Assembly: GCF_000237325.1 (NCBI RefSeq)
Contig: NC_017542.1
Coordinates: 1,247,501 to 1,311,500, forward strand
DNA from: Paenibacillus polymyxa M1
Lineage (GTDB): Bacteria; Bacillota; Bacilli; Paenibacillales; Paenibacillaceae
Direction of reading: 5' to 3'
DNA: 64,000 nucleotides
This document shows, piece after piece, positions 2,985 to 6,484 of this stretch. The position numbers and the translations under genes were made by a program. Below the pieces are notes generated by a model, which saw nothing but the letters and a program-made list of their open reading frames with translations, searched no databases and was not told the origin of the DNA. Positions within the stretch are counted from its first letter, which is position 1; each line of letters opens with the position of its first letter.

Positions 2985-3115
2985 AAAGAACATGATACCC
3001 TTATTTTGAAGAAGGTATGAACATCATCGTATAGAATAATATAGTTTCAGGAAGATAAAATGTTAAAACATATACAAATTTGTAAATCCTACTACGTAAC
3101 TTTGAGGTGCTTAAT

Positions 3116-5005
3116 ATGAGGCATGTGCCCAAAGCTGTCGCCGCTCTGCTAGCGGTCATTGTGATACTATTGTCGCTGGACCACATCGGCTATGCGGCCA
3201 AAATGACCCCGGAAAGGGAGTATAAGATACCCTCCTGGGATATGAGATGGGGAGCAGAAGACGAGGATGGCTCTTTAGATGAGGTAACTGATCACAGTAA
3301 GGTCTGGATGCATATTGAAGATGATACACAGCTGCTCAAGCAGCCAGGCAATAGAGGCACCGCCTGGATTCGTATTAAGCTACCTTCGTTAAATGATGAA
3401 ACACCAGCGGTGCTTTTTGAAAATATTTATGGCAGGCACATTACACTGTATAAGGATGGCACCAATTTTTATGAATCGTACCGTGGCTATAATTATGAGA
3501 ATAATCGTATTCTGATTCCGCTGAAGCCAGAAGACAGTGGTAAAACATTATACATATGGACGGAAAGCAGTAAGAATAGACTGGGCATTATCGGAAATGT
3601 GATGACTGGTGATTATCGTGACTTGTTGGGAAACTTGGTCAGAATGGATGTCTTGGATATTGTACTGGGCAGTACATTTATCTTTATCGCCCTGGTGCTA
3701 TTGATCTGCTCGTTTTTCCTGTTCCGTCCAAGTATGGCCATGTGGTTGTCCCTAAGTGCGATTGTATTGTCGATCGGTCTGATGATTGTAACGTATTCAC
3801 CGTTTTTATATACGTTCTATCGAGGCTATGGCAAGCTGTATTTACAACTTTTTGATGTGGCGCTATTTATTCTGTTGCCTTCATTAGCCTTCTTTTTTGA
3901 GCAAAATATCAATTCAATTTTACTGATTCGGAAATTCAGAAAATTGTTAACCGCCTACTCTTTGTTCTGCTTCATCATCATGATTGTGAATTTAGGAGCA
4001 CAGGAGCGACTCAACGATGTATATTATTTCTTCAGTGTAATCGTCCTCGGTATATTGCTCGTAGCTTTGATGGTACTTTTGGTATTTGCTTCGATTCGCA
4101 TGGCGCTTAAGGGAGACCACGAAGCGATCATTTTATCGACAGGCTTTGCATTTTTTGCAGTCATCACGATCGCAGAACTCAGCTGGTTCTTTATCCGGGA
4201 CGGACACTACAATATGTTTTTATGGAAATGGGGCGTGTTCGGTTTTGTCCTGGCATTGATTGCGATCTTGGGCAGAAGGCTGGCGGAAAAGCACAAGCAG
4301 GTGGTTCGGTATTCCAGAGAACTGGAGATGTTCAATAATGAGCTTCAACGTTCAGAGAAAATGGAGATTATTAGCGATTTGGCTGCATCTGTAGCTCATG
4401 AGGTACGCAATCCGCTTCAGGTTACACGTGGATTTCTTCAGTTGATGAGCAAGCAGGAGGATGGTAAGAACAAAGACTATCTGCATATCGCTCTGGAGGA
4501 GTTGGATCGAGCGTCCGCGATTATTACTGATTTTCTGACTTTTGCCAAGCCGGAGTTTGACCATACCAAAACGTTGACCATATTGGATGAGTTCAAACAT
4601 ATAGAAGGAATTATCAGTCCAATGGCAAATCTGCAAGGTGGTAAAATTTCGCTGGATATTCCCCAGGAAATCAAAGTGCGCGGGAATTCCTCCAAATTCA
4701 AGCAGGCATTTATCAATATTATCAAAAACAGTATTGAAGCGTTGCGAGAACAGGGACATATTCATATATGGGCTTATGTGGACAATGGAGAAGCAGTCAT
4801 TCATATTCGGGATAATGGTGAAGGGATGGATGCTCAGACCTTATCCAGACTAGGTGAGCCTTATTTTTCGAATAAGACTAAAGGCACGGGTTTGGGGATG
4901 ATGGTGACCTTTCGGATTATTGAAACGATGAATGGTAAAATATCTTTTACAAGTGCAAAAGGGGTGGGAACAGAAGCGACCATCCGCTTCCCCGTAGCCG
5001 GATAA
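3116..5005 (+). CDS. Multi-pass membrane sensor histidine kinase, orphan
   Basis: The 629-residue protein begins with a signal-anchor helix (about 5-28). An extracytoplasmic domain to about residue 175 resembles the 7TMR-DISM sensor domain. About seven hydrophobic helices follow (about 180-400), then a short coiled coil and a kinase core. The H-box AHEVRNPLQVTRGFLQLM places the phospho-acceptor His near residue 428; the ATPase shows FINIIKNSIEAL (N), DNGEGM (G1) and GTGLGM (G2). This H-box resembles Bacillus sporulation kinases, which phosphorylate Spo0F and lack a partner regulator nearby, and none is seen here. ATG 3116 is preferred (GAGG at 8 nt). It converges on a ComQ-like/precursor pair, so it may sense that product. 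Confidence 0.88.
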   Translation: MRHVPKAVAALLAVIVILLSLDHIGYAAKMTPEREYKIPSWDMRWGAEDEDGSLDEVTDHSKVWMHIEDDTQLLKQPGNRGTAWIRIKLPSLNDETPAVLFENIYGRHITLYKDGTNFYESYRGYNYENNRILIPLKPEDSGKTLYIWTESSKNRLGIIGNVMTGDYRDLLGNLVRMDVLDIVLGSTFIFIALVLLICSFFLFRPSMAMWLSLSAIVLSIGLMIVTYSPFLYTFYRGYGKLYLQLFDVALFILLPSLAFFFEQNINSILLIRKFRKLLTAYSLFCFIIMIVNLGAQERLNDVYYFFSVIVLGILLVALMVLLVFASIRMALKGDHEAIILSTGFAFFAVITIAELSWFFIRDGHYNMFLWKWGVFGFVLALIAILGRRLAEKHKQVVRYSRELEMFNNELQRSEKMEIISDLAASVAHEVRNPLQVTRGFLQLMSKQEDGKNKDYLHIALEELDRASAIITDFLTFAKPEFDHTKTLTILDEFKHIEGIISPMANLQGGKISLDIPQEIKVRGNSSKFKQAFINIIKNSIEALREQGHIHIWAYVDNGEAVIHIRDNGEGMDAQTLSRLGEPYFSNKTKGTGLGMMVTFRIIETMNGKISFTSAKGVGTEATIRFPVAG

Positions 5006-5019
5006 CATCCGGCTTTTTT
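4997..5019 (+). terminator. Rho-independent terminator of the kinase gene
   Basis: A perfect 7-bp stem GCCGGAT/ATCCGGC (4997-5003, 5007-5013) with a 3-nt loop is followed by TTTTTT. The kinase stop codon (5003-5005) lies inside the hairpin. Confidence 0.85.
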
Positions 5020-5104
5020 GCGTTCGGAGAAAACGGAGGGAAGCTTGCTGAGCCCACCCGCTTGAGATTAAAAAGTATAGATTAAATAAGCTACAAGAAC
5101 CAAT

Positions 5105-5341
5105 CTACCACATCGCGCGAGGTTTCTGGGATGTAGCGAGCACGCCTGAAGGGTTTGGAGGGATAACCAGATAAAATTGATCAGACGTTTCCTCTACCGT
5201 TTTGATTTGGATATGATCGGGGATCACGACTCCTAACACATCACGAATTGCAGATTTGGGATCTGCCATCAGTTTCTCTCTGAAACTGGCATCCTCCCAA
5301 GCTTTTTGAATGACTTGTGTTTGAAGAACTTCAGTAGCCAT
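5105..5341 (-). CDS. NHLP-leader RiPP precursor peptide, C-terminal Trp
   Basis: The 78-residue product matches the NHLP (nitrile hydratase-like leader peptide) precursor family. Family features are an N-terminal helix with AWEDASFREKLMADPKSAI (about 15-32), LGVVIPDHIQIKTVEET (36-52) and the terminal leader strand FYLVIPPNP (56-64). What follows is a short putative core, PSGVLATSQKPRAMW, with no Cys and only a few Ser/Thr, so a lanthipeptide or thiopeptide is unlikely. The last residue is Trp. ATG 5341 (AGAGGG upstream) is preferred to the TTG one codon earlier. It lies 72 nt downstream of, and codirectional with, a class I isoprenoid enzyme gene, the order seen for comQ-comX. Prenylation of the Trp is an inference. 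Confidence 0.85.
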   Translation of the reverse strand: MATEVLQTQVIQKAWEDASFREKLMADPKSAIRDVLGVVIPDHIQIKTVEETSDQFYLVIPPNPSGVLATSQKPRAMW

Positions 5342-5416
5342 CAAAAATCACCCTCTCATTCAATTGGTTATAATTACCTAGTCAGTATACCACGTAAGAC
5401 TCAGAAAAATCTAGCA

Positions 5417-6352
5417 TTATTTCATATTTTTGGAGAGCCAATAATCAAGCCCGCCTCTTCGCAAATGTGAGCGTCCGCCTTCAATTTCTGCTGCCTCTTC
5501 GCTGAGCTCTGTTGCGATGGAATGTGCGAACCTATACAGACCGTGGATGGAAGGCTCCATCGTCTCTAGCTCCTGGACTGATTGATTCGCAATGTTCGCA
5601 TAGCTGGCGAGCGCCCCGCGTACATAAATCGCTTCCTGAATTTGTTGTGGTCCTAGTCCTTCACAGTACGCCGTCTTTTGTTCGGCGCTGATATGGGACA
5701 ATAGGCAGTTATAGCTATGTTCCACCAAGTCTTCTGACCAATCTGCCCAATCATCCGACATTTGGAGCACGAGCAAGCTCAAATCTGTCATATGGGTAAC
5801 AGTCTGGATCAGATCGGCATGATCTGCGAGCAATAAGGCACCCGTTCCGGCCATTTTTAATGGGCTGGCTTTTAGTGCGACCTTATTTCTTTCACCTTGA
5901 AAATAGTCCTCTGTTCCTTCGGATATCACACTAACGGCCCATTCGTCCACATACGTCCTGGCATATGACCAAAAAGGAGAGGTTGCCGGAAAAAGCTCCT
6001 GATAAATGTTTAGACACTCGGTATAGAAAAGCTGACTTAAGGCAAGTTGCGTTTTACGGTTGTCTGCTGCTGTGTCCATCACGTCGTCTTGAATTAAATA
6101 ATGAGCCATGACGAACACGTTGCCGAGTGACAGCTTGCGACATGTTTCGGGAGACAGTCCGGTCAGTTCCTGCAGCCAAAATGGAAGCAAATAGCATATG
6201 TAATTACGCGTACTGTCTTCCCGCAACGGATTAAACCGCGCCAGGTAGTCTAACCCCTCTTGCTGAAAGGGAACCGGAAATGTGGCCGTCCGTTCCTCCG
6301 CTTGGCGGAATACCTTTTCCAATTCTTCTTTGTATGCAAAATACCATTCCAT
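5417..6352 (-). CDS. Class I isoprenoid synthase-fold enzyme, ComQ-like candidate
   Basis: The roughly 311-residue, largely helical protein has the two Asp-rich motifs of the class I isoprenyl diphosphate synthase fold: DDVMD (residues 89-93) and SDDWADWSED (199-208), with a KASPLKMAGTGALLL helix before the second. These bind the Mg2+/diphosphate of an isoprenyl donor. Length and context (adjacent downstream short precursor ending in Trp) suggest a ComQ-type peptide prenyltransferase, but a terpene synthase or short-chain polyprenyl synthase is possible. The frame extends to ATG 6367; ATG 6352 has GGGTGG at about 6 nt and is slightly preferred. A TATAAT sits about 50 nt upstream. Confidence 0.8.
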   Translation of the reverse strand: MEWYFAYKEELEKVFRQAEERTATFPVPFQQEGLDYLARFNPLREDSTRNYICYLLPFWLQELTGLSPETCRKLSLGNVFVMAHYLIQDDVMDTAADNRKTQLALSQLFYTECLNIYQELFPATSPFWSYARTYVDEWAVSVISEGTEDYFQGERNKVALKASPLKMAGTGALLLADHADLIQTVTHMTDLSLLVLQMSDDWADWSEDLVEHSYNCLLSHISAEQKTAYCEGLGPQQIQEAIYVRGALASYANIANQSVQELETMEPSIHGLYRFAHSIATELSEEAAEIEGGRSHLRRGGLDYWLSKNMK

Positions 6353-6484
6353 GGCTACCACCCGCATCTCTTATAAATGTTTTTGTAGCGACTTATAGTT
6401 GTTATCCGCCATTATATAAGAGGTTGCGATATTGCAATATTATGTTATTTTTACATTGAGAATTATGTGAAAAAGATATCAACA

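Follow-up and report, generated by a model that had tools for sequence, protein, structure and literature searches.

A PalX/PalQ-type locus beside an orphan KinB-type kinase in Paenibacillus polymyxa M1 and its possible link to sporulation

The P-X-Q locus and its published precedent

We analysed a 64,000-nucleotide stretch of the 6.23 Mb genome of Paenibacillus polymyxa M1 (NC_017542.1:1247501-1311500; hereafter the window), which carries a three-gene locus made up of a histidine kinase (P), a small precursor with an NHLP leader (X) and an isoprenoid-fold enzyme (Q). An earlier note on this DNA had located the three genes and read them as a comQXP-like signalling system that had not been described before. 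The genes lie where the note placed them (Table 1). Q and X are separated by 75 nt, and X and P converge, their stop codons lying 99 nt apart. The claim of novelty has to be withdrawn: the three-gene combination has been known since 2023, when Miyata, Ito and Fujinami reported the cluster palP (kinase)-palX (NHLP precursor)-palQ of Paenibacillus alvei (PMC10853753; here and below, cited papers are quoted from the accessible portions of their text). We consider it probable that the locus is the P. polymyxa-group version of this PalX/PalQ system, and that its peptide may modulate P, a putative kinase of the sporulation relay.

PalQ prenylates the C-terminal Trp of PalX in vitro, with mass shifts observed for C5, C10 and C15 donors. 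Full-length PalX is a better substrate than the bare core when substrate is limited, and addition of an Ala behind the Trp abolishes the activity. The PalQ residues discussed are D89/D93, D200/D204 and Q197, and the double mutant D200A/D204A is still active. Cleavage of PalX in lysate was shown for P. alvei (all PMC10853753). A 2026 review (PMC13290415) treats PalQ as an enzyme; PalP, PalX, NHLP and Paenibacillus are absent from its main text. The window locus resembles the P. alvei cluster in combining a kinase, an NHLP precursor with a terminal Trp and an isoprenoid-fold enzyme, and in the identical numbering of both aspartate-rich motifs and of Q197. It differs in the core, which is DNVRRFFW in P. 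alvei and SQKPRAMW here, and many relatives of the window system carry residues behind the Trp. The kinase type of PalP and its independence are not a topic of the accessible text of PMC10853753.

Against the NHLP leader model TIGR03793, X scores 67.4 bits, above the cut-off of 50.9, in agreement with the 78-residue NHLP-type precursor described in the earlier note. By analogy with PalX, Trp78 is the predicted prenylation site. That an enzyme of this kind prenylates the Trp of an NHLP precursor, as the note had proposed, is published for PalQ and PalX (PMC10853753), and the window pair, sharing the same residues and layout, would be expected to behave likewise.

Q contains DDVMD at residues 89-93 and SDDWADWSED at 199-208, and the order of enzyme and precursor is that of comQ-comX, both as noted earlier. 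D89, D93, Q197, D200 and D204 are invariant at the published PalQ numbers in a 12-row alignment; the same holds for 118 of 118 Q rows extracted from the loci analysed, some of these rows being duplicates or close relatives. Neither Pfam nor NCBIfam produced a match for Q up to E = 10, and a profile search against PDB and Pfam returned nothing useful. Its AlphaFold2 model (predicted local distance difference test, pLDDT, 90.5) resembles trans-polyprenyl synthases. Among the fold matches, 2azk has the lowest E-value (4e-4) and 4jxy the highest template-modelling score of the first ranks (0.69); MoeN5 is also present. No terpene cyclase occurs among the best 50 of 351 fold matches, and a terpene cyclase identity, which would have spoken against the note, was rejected on this ground. 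Identity of Q to named relatives is 92% for P. polymyxa, 89% for P. ottowii and 43% for a relative named P. thiaminolyticus. Public records label Q relatives in the P. thiaminolyticus group (P0114, P0121, P0122) as 'methionine synthase I', which appears to be an annotation error. At locus L070 of genome G005 (3375-4607), no stop codon separates Q from X and the two share an open reading frame, either a natural-looking fusion or a sequencing frameshift.

Table 1. Features of the P-X-Q locus (window coordinates)
Feature	Position	Strand	Remarks
P, orphan histidine kinase, 629 aa	3116..5005	+	possible GTG start at 3107
X, NHLP-leader precursor, 78 aa, PalX-type	5105..5341	-	TIGR03793; ends SQKPRAMW
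Predicted core of X, last 8 residues (SQKPRAMW)	5108..5131	-	length modelled on the PalX core, which has 8 residues (PMC10853753, accessible text); putative cleavage site
Q, predicted PalQ-type tryptophan prenyltransferase, 311 aa from ATG 6352 or 316 aa from alternative ATG 6367	5417..6352/6367	-	first aspartate-rich motif (FARM) D89-D93; Q197; second aspartate-rich motif (SARM) D200-D204
Terminator-like hairpin 3' of the kinase, AGCCGGATAACATCCGGCT then T run	4996..5014	+	identified by consensus only; the stretch has 3 sites of this kind against 1.8 expected from shuffled sequence

A promoter scan yielded nothing above chance (1 found, 2.8 expected), and RNA folding of the convergent gap between X and P was unremarkable.

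Linkage of Q and X and independence of P

Q was found in 63 of 75 genus genomes, in 326 of 394 genomes of a family sample and in 91 of 149 of an order sample, which shares some genomes with the others. All candidates were scored in the genus searches for Q and X, and usually the best 5 per genome in the family search for Q; some of the genomes scored as Q-negative are incomplete. Within the genus, an NHLP precursor above the cut-off lies no more than 400 nt from Q in 63 of 63 Q-positive genomes, and both Q and X are missing from the other 12 of 75. The pairing is therefore not due to chance. One of these 12 genomes (G031) has NHLP matches below the cut-off elsewhere, and five genomes (G016, G032, G036, G067, G068) have further NHLP matches elsewhere in the genome.

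We read 117 Q-bearing loci, a part of all Q-positive genomes, corresponding to 115 systems in 113 genomes after removal of two duplicates; the duplicate rows dropped were L174, L180 and L160. X is present in 115 of 115 systems and within 2.5 kb of Q in 113. The exceptions are G319, with X behind a kinase about 2.5 kb away, and G326, with X 35 kb from Q but beside P. In 114 of 115 systems X and P are arranged tail to tail, their stop codons 6-326 nt apart (median 86). Counted by locus the figure is 116 of 119; not included are L168 of G381, where P is 16 kb away, and two loci of G326, a genome in which the X-P pair lies in L213.

P was then sought in genomes lacking Q, with all candidates scored for most of the 12 genus genomes, and with the best 20 per genome (E <= 1e-60) for the other family genomes. 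All 12 genus genomes that lack Q and X carry it, free of internal stops and at 44-53% identity. In these genomes the upstream genes are the same and the downstream gene is common, so that compared with Q-positive relatives only Q and X are missing in between; the window additionally carries a polysaccharide deacetylase gene between P and the common downstream gene. A 100-aa gene without a Pfam match, upstream of the kinase (2682-2984 in the window), keeps its place in all 12. The other 56 Q-negative family genomes yielded P in 22 and a broken P in one (G154). Overall, P occurs in 34 of 68 Q-negative family genomes and in 113 of 113 Q-positive genomes examined (Fisher 4e-18, uncorrected for kinship and with the two sets searched differently), and its absence from genomes of low completeness (e.g. 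G105, G282, G338, G368) may be a gap. The earlier expectation of co-occurrence thus holds for Q and X, which stand together wherever examined, but not for P, which is also found without them. The dependence runs one way: Q and X rely on P or its locus, whereas P does not rely on them.

A kinase tree of 154 rows was built by a quick method, without L160, fragments below 400 aa and rows truncated at the edge of a locus. The Q-negative label needs 8 changes when set against all Q-positive rows, and the starred branches force 8; second kinase copies are included, so the number of events at genome level is lower. Seven separate groups of Q-negative genomes are visible. For the group of G033, G034, G037 and G064, which lies within Q-positive relatives, this means that Q and X were lost. 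In one g8 subgroup the Q-positive genomes have two kinases, and the six Q-negative genomes fetched have the second type only. P without its extracellular domain was seen at L229 (G246) and L230 (G206), both in genomes without Q and X and near-identical, hence one event; none of the 124 Q-positive rows kept shows this. A relaxed sensor in Q-negative kinases was considered as a sign of a lost ligand, but the picture is not clear, as the ectodomains diverge fast in Q-positive lineages too. A second kinase copy stands near the first in L136-L140, L142-L145, L154, L179, L214 and L218, and in L214 the precursor lies between the two kinases.

The conservation of the Trp was evaluated in 114 of the 117 loci with X, counting one X per locus and leaving out two duplicates and L161, where one of two matches is spurious and the real X ends in ARWL. 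A Trp near the C-terminus, which the earlier note expected to be conserved, is present in 114 of 114 precursors, yet it is the last residue in only 53; one residue follows it in 18, two in 38, three in 3 and more than three in 2. Thus 61 precursors have 1-6 residues behind the Trp. Of these, 37 belong to one clade of near relatives, the GPWR clade, with the endings GPWRS, GPWRD, GPWRT, GPWRN and GPWRSF, which supplies 34 of the 38 cases with two following residues and all 3 with three. With this clade set aside, residues behind the Trp remain in 24 of 77 precursors. Because PalQ needs a terminal Trp in vitro, such systems would require either trimming or a more tolerant enzyme. Several loci carry more than one precursor: five X genes in a row follow one Q at L152 of G296 (4796-6281), three occur at L176, and two each at L145, L159 and L163. 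In the GPWR clade the core difference is 0.024 while Q differs by 0.311, and in the polymyxa group the core difference (0.168) exceeds that of the leader (0.048). A pherotype-like diversification of the core was considered and not seen in the GPWR clade, although the polymyxa-group core outvaries its leader.

Kinase P as an orphan of the KinB type

The model of P (pLDDT 74.3, moderate) comprises a signal helix, a beta-rich outside domain (about residues 40-166), seven membrane helices and a HisKA (H428)/HATPase core. The seven-helix kinase of the earlier note, converging with the precursor and lacking a partner regulator, is thereby borne out, the last point because the nearest PF00072 receiver domain lies 12.9 kb away. 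Pfam assigns HisKA (PF00512) and HATPase_c, and the sensor is 7TMR-DISM-like: PF07695 matches 9 of 19 aligned kinases, the window P weakly (E 0.045). In a profile search against solved structures, KinB of Geobacillus stearothermophilus (3d36) ranked best, with 259.8 bits compared with 128.6 for the next, and in the fold search P and this KinB share 45% identity. ComP belongs to another HisKA type. P as a ComP homologue was rejected on domain type and kinship to KinB, and judged from its sequence P is an orphan KinB-type kinase.

At the six specificity positions, which we take to be H+7, +8, +11, +12, +14 and +15, P reads QVGFQL. The published strings are TAGFQL for KinA and TVGFQL for B. subtilis KinB (PMC6136694, Table 1). 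The genome contains 36 HisKA matches, 8 of them without a receiver domain within 5 kb. The pattern xxGFQL/M occurs in 5 of 35 readable HisKA kinases, at 130, 864, 1252 (P), 1615 and 4685 kb, and all five are orphans (Fisher 1.5e-4). Among the first kinases of Q-positive loci, 105 of 113 retain QVGFQL, as do 25 of 30 Q-negative rows. In the GPWR clade (16 loci), the outside domain of P differs by 27% and the kinase core by 5%. The outside and membrane parts of P vary while the output residues are almost fixed; the kinase has a variable input and a fixed output.

Five putative kinases are named for P. polymyxa E681: Kin99, Kin689, Kin1038, Kin1377 and Kin3851 (PMC7538429). When the five GFQL-type kinases are set against these gene numbers, the points fall near one line of 1.21 kb per gene, with residuals up to 53 kb. 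By this map position P is probably the orthologue of Kin1038 (PPE_01038). Position by itself would equally allow an orphan at 1217 kb, but the specificity residues of that kinase are NGGMGL. According to a review (PMC6429003), sporulation in a kinA kinB mutant of B. subtilis was partly rescued by Kin1038; the rescue was stronger when P. polymyxa spo0A was supplied as well, a sign that phosphotransfer to Spo0A may be direct. P thus resembles the sporulation kinases KinA-KinE and Kin1038 in being an orphan, in its GFQL-type residues, in its KinB-like core and in a map order fitting Kin1038. It differs in its 7TMR-DISM-like sensor module and in having Q instead of T as the first specificity residue.

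A prenylated peptide as a possible optional modulator of P

By analogy with P. alvei, Q, with its trans-prenyl-synthase fold, would take a prenyl diphosphate and transfer the prenyl group to the indole C3 of residue Trp78 in X, with assistance from the NHLP leader. Removal of the leader would then release a short prenylated peptide, as the in vitro prenylation and the lysate cleavage in P. alvei suggest. The specificity residues and the probable identity with Kin1038 point to the sporulation relay (Spo0F and/or Spo0A) as the putative output of P. The kinase would have a job of its own, being present without the peptide genes in several lineages, and the prenylated peptide would most likely be an optional modulator of it. 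The one-way dependence of Q and X on P is in keeping with such a modulator and with a separate role of the kinase.

Several points weigh against this proposal. P persists without Q and X, and peptide sensing is therefore not its only role and may be no role at all. For the window Q and X, the proposal draws on the published P. alvei chemistry and on sequence. The presumed kinship of Q to PalQ (K4ZRG6) is based on residues, layout and numbering, and a search of 394 family genomes for the core published for P. alvei found it in none. Moreover, Pfam identified no exporter, protease or other enzyme of ribosomally synthesized and post-translationally modified peptides among ten open reading frames chosen between 442 and 14005, four of which had no match of any kind.

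The foremost alternative is a closed, comQXP-like quorum circuit in which all three genes belong to a single signalling unit and P serves as the dedicated receptor for prenylated X. We regard it as possible, though on balance doubtful. The layout of enzyme, precursor and kinase, on which the earlier note had based this reading, stands: as in ComQXP of Bacillus, a class I isoprenoid-fold enzyme would prenylate the Trp of a small precursor encoded beside a membrane histidine kinase, in the same enzyme-precursor order. The tight tail-to-tail spacing of X and P is in its favour, X staying beside P even where Q has moved away (G326), as is the presence of P in every Q-positive genome examined (113/113) compared with half of the Q-negative ones. 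So are the six Q-negative genomes of the g8 subgroup that keep only the second kinase type, and the occurrence of the only two kept kinase rows without an outside domain, one near-identical pair, in Q-negative genomes. With the kinase domain accounted for, distances of X and of Q also correlated with those of the P ectodomain (partial Mantel r 0.28 and 0.54, no non-partner control), a result on which we do not lean; near-identical systems were thinned to 58 for this comparison, and two-kinase systems, duplicates and a few odd loci were left out.

The closed circuit, however, is weakened by the HisKA/KinB type of P and by the intact P, in the same place, of the 12 genus genomes without Q and X, and by the presence of P in 34 of the 68 Q-negative family genomes in all. 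The outside domain of P evolves fast with or without X, and in the GPWR clade an almost invariant core faces an ectodomain that differs by 27%, unlike pherotype co-diversification. Further differences from ComQXP are the NHLP leader of the window precursor, the second Asp-rich motif of Q (D200, D204), which ComQ lacks (PMC10853753), the 7TMR-DISM-like sensor of P and the absence of a receiver gene within 12.9 kb; that constant company of kinase, enzyme and precursor marks a ComQXP system is our own reading. The one-way dependence may also be compatible with a dedicated receptor whose role changed where X was lost, or with a kinase that is simply adjacent.

Alternatively, the kinase might be only a neighbour, its synteny inherited, and the Q/X peptide might serve another purpose as an antimicrobial, a surface-active compound or a signal for another receptor. 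This we judge rather unlikely. P stands without Q and X in several lineages, in the genus genomes with nothing else missing before the common downstream gene, and geranylated synthetic peptides are reported to gain antimicrobial activity (PMC13290415). Against it, Q and X were never seen without P in the 113 genomes, the X-P spacing is tight, and half of the Q-negative genomes lack P as well. Finally, a role of Q as terpene synthase or polyprenyl diphosphate synthase, with no connection to X, is highly improbable: its fold matches are polyprenyl synthases and some relatives bear the names terpene synthase or polyprenyl synthetase, but Q-X linkage is strict, Q197 and the Trp are conserved, Q and X share a fused frame in G005, and PalQ activity is published (PMC10853753).

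The chemistry is already known, and what remains of interest is its use to the cell, where the gene neighbourhood and the kinase type suggest a link between the prenylated peptide and the control of sporulation. No link of a Trp-prenylated peptide to a sporulation-type kinase was named in the literature searched, largely below full-text level. The analysis further shows that the kinase of the cluster is independent of the other two genes, and natural PalQ relatives facing a non-terminal Trp are candidate enzymes for peptide lipidation. P may sense the peptide, and the locus thereby supplies a candidate input for Kin1038, whose signal goes unnamed in the accessible text of the cited literature. 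A bolder and rather unlikely extension is that the prenylated NHLP peptide is a Paenibacillaceae-wide cell-cell signal read by a KinB-type seven-helix kinase (Kin1038 in P. polymyxa) that feeds Spo0A directly, variants with residues behind the Trp being trimmed first or prenylated internally by variant PalQ enzymes. If true, it would represent a Trp-prenylated pheromone for sporulation instead of competence.

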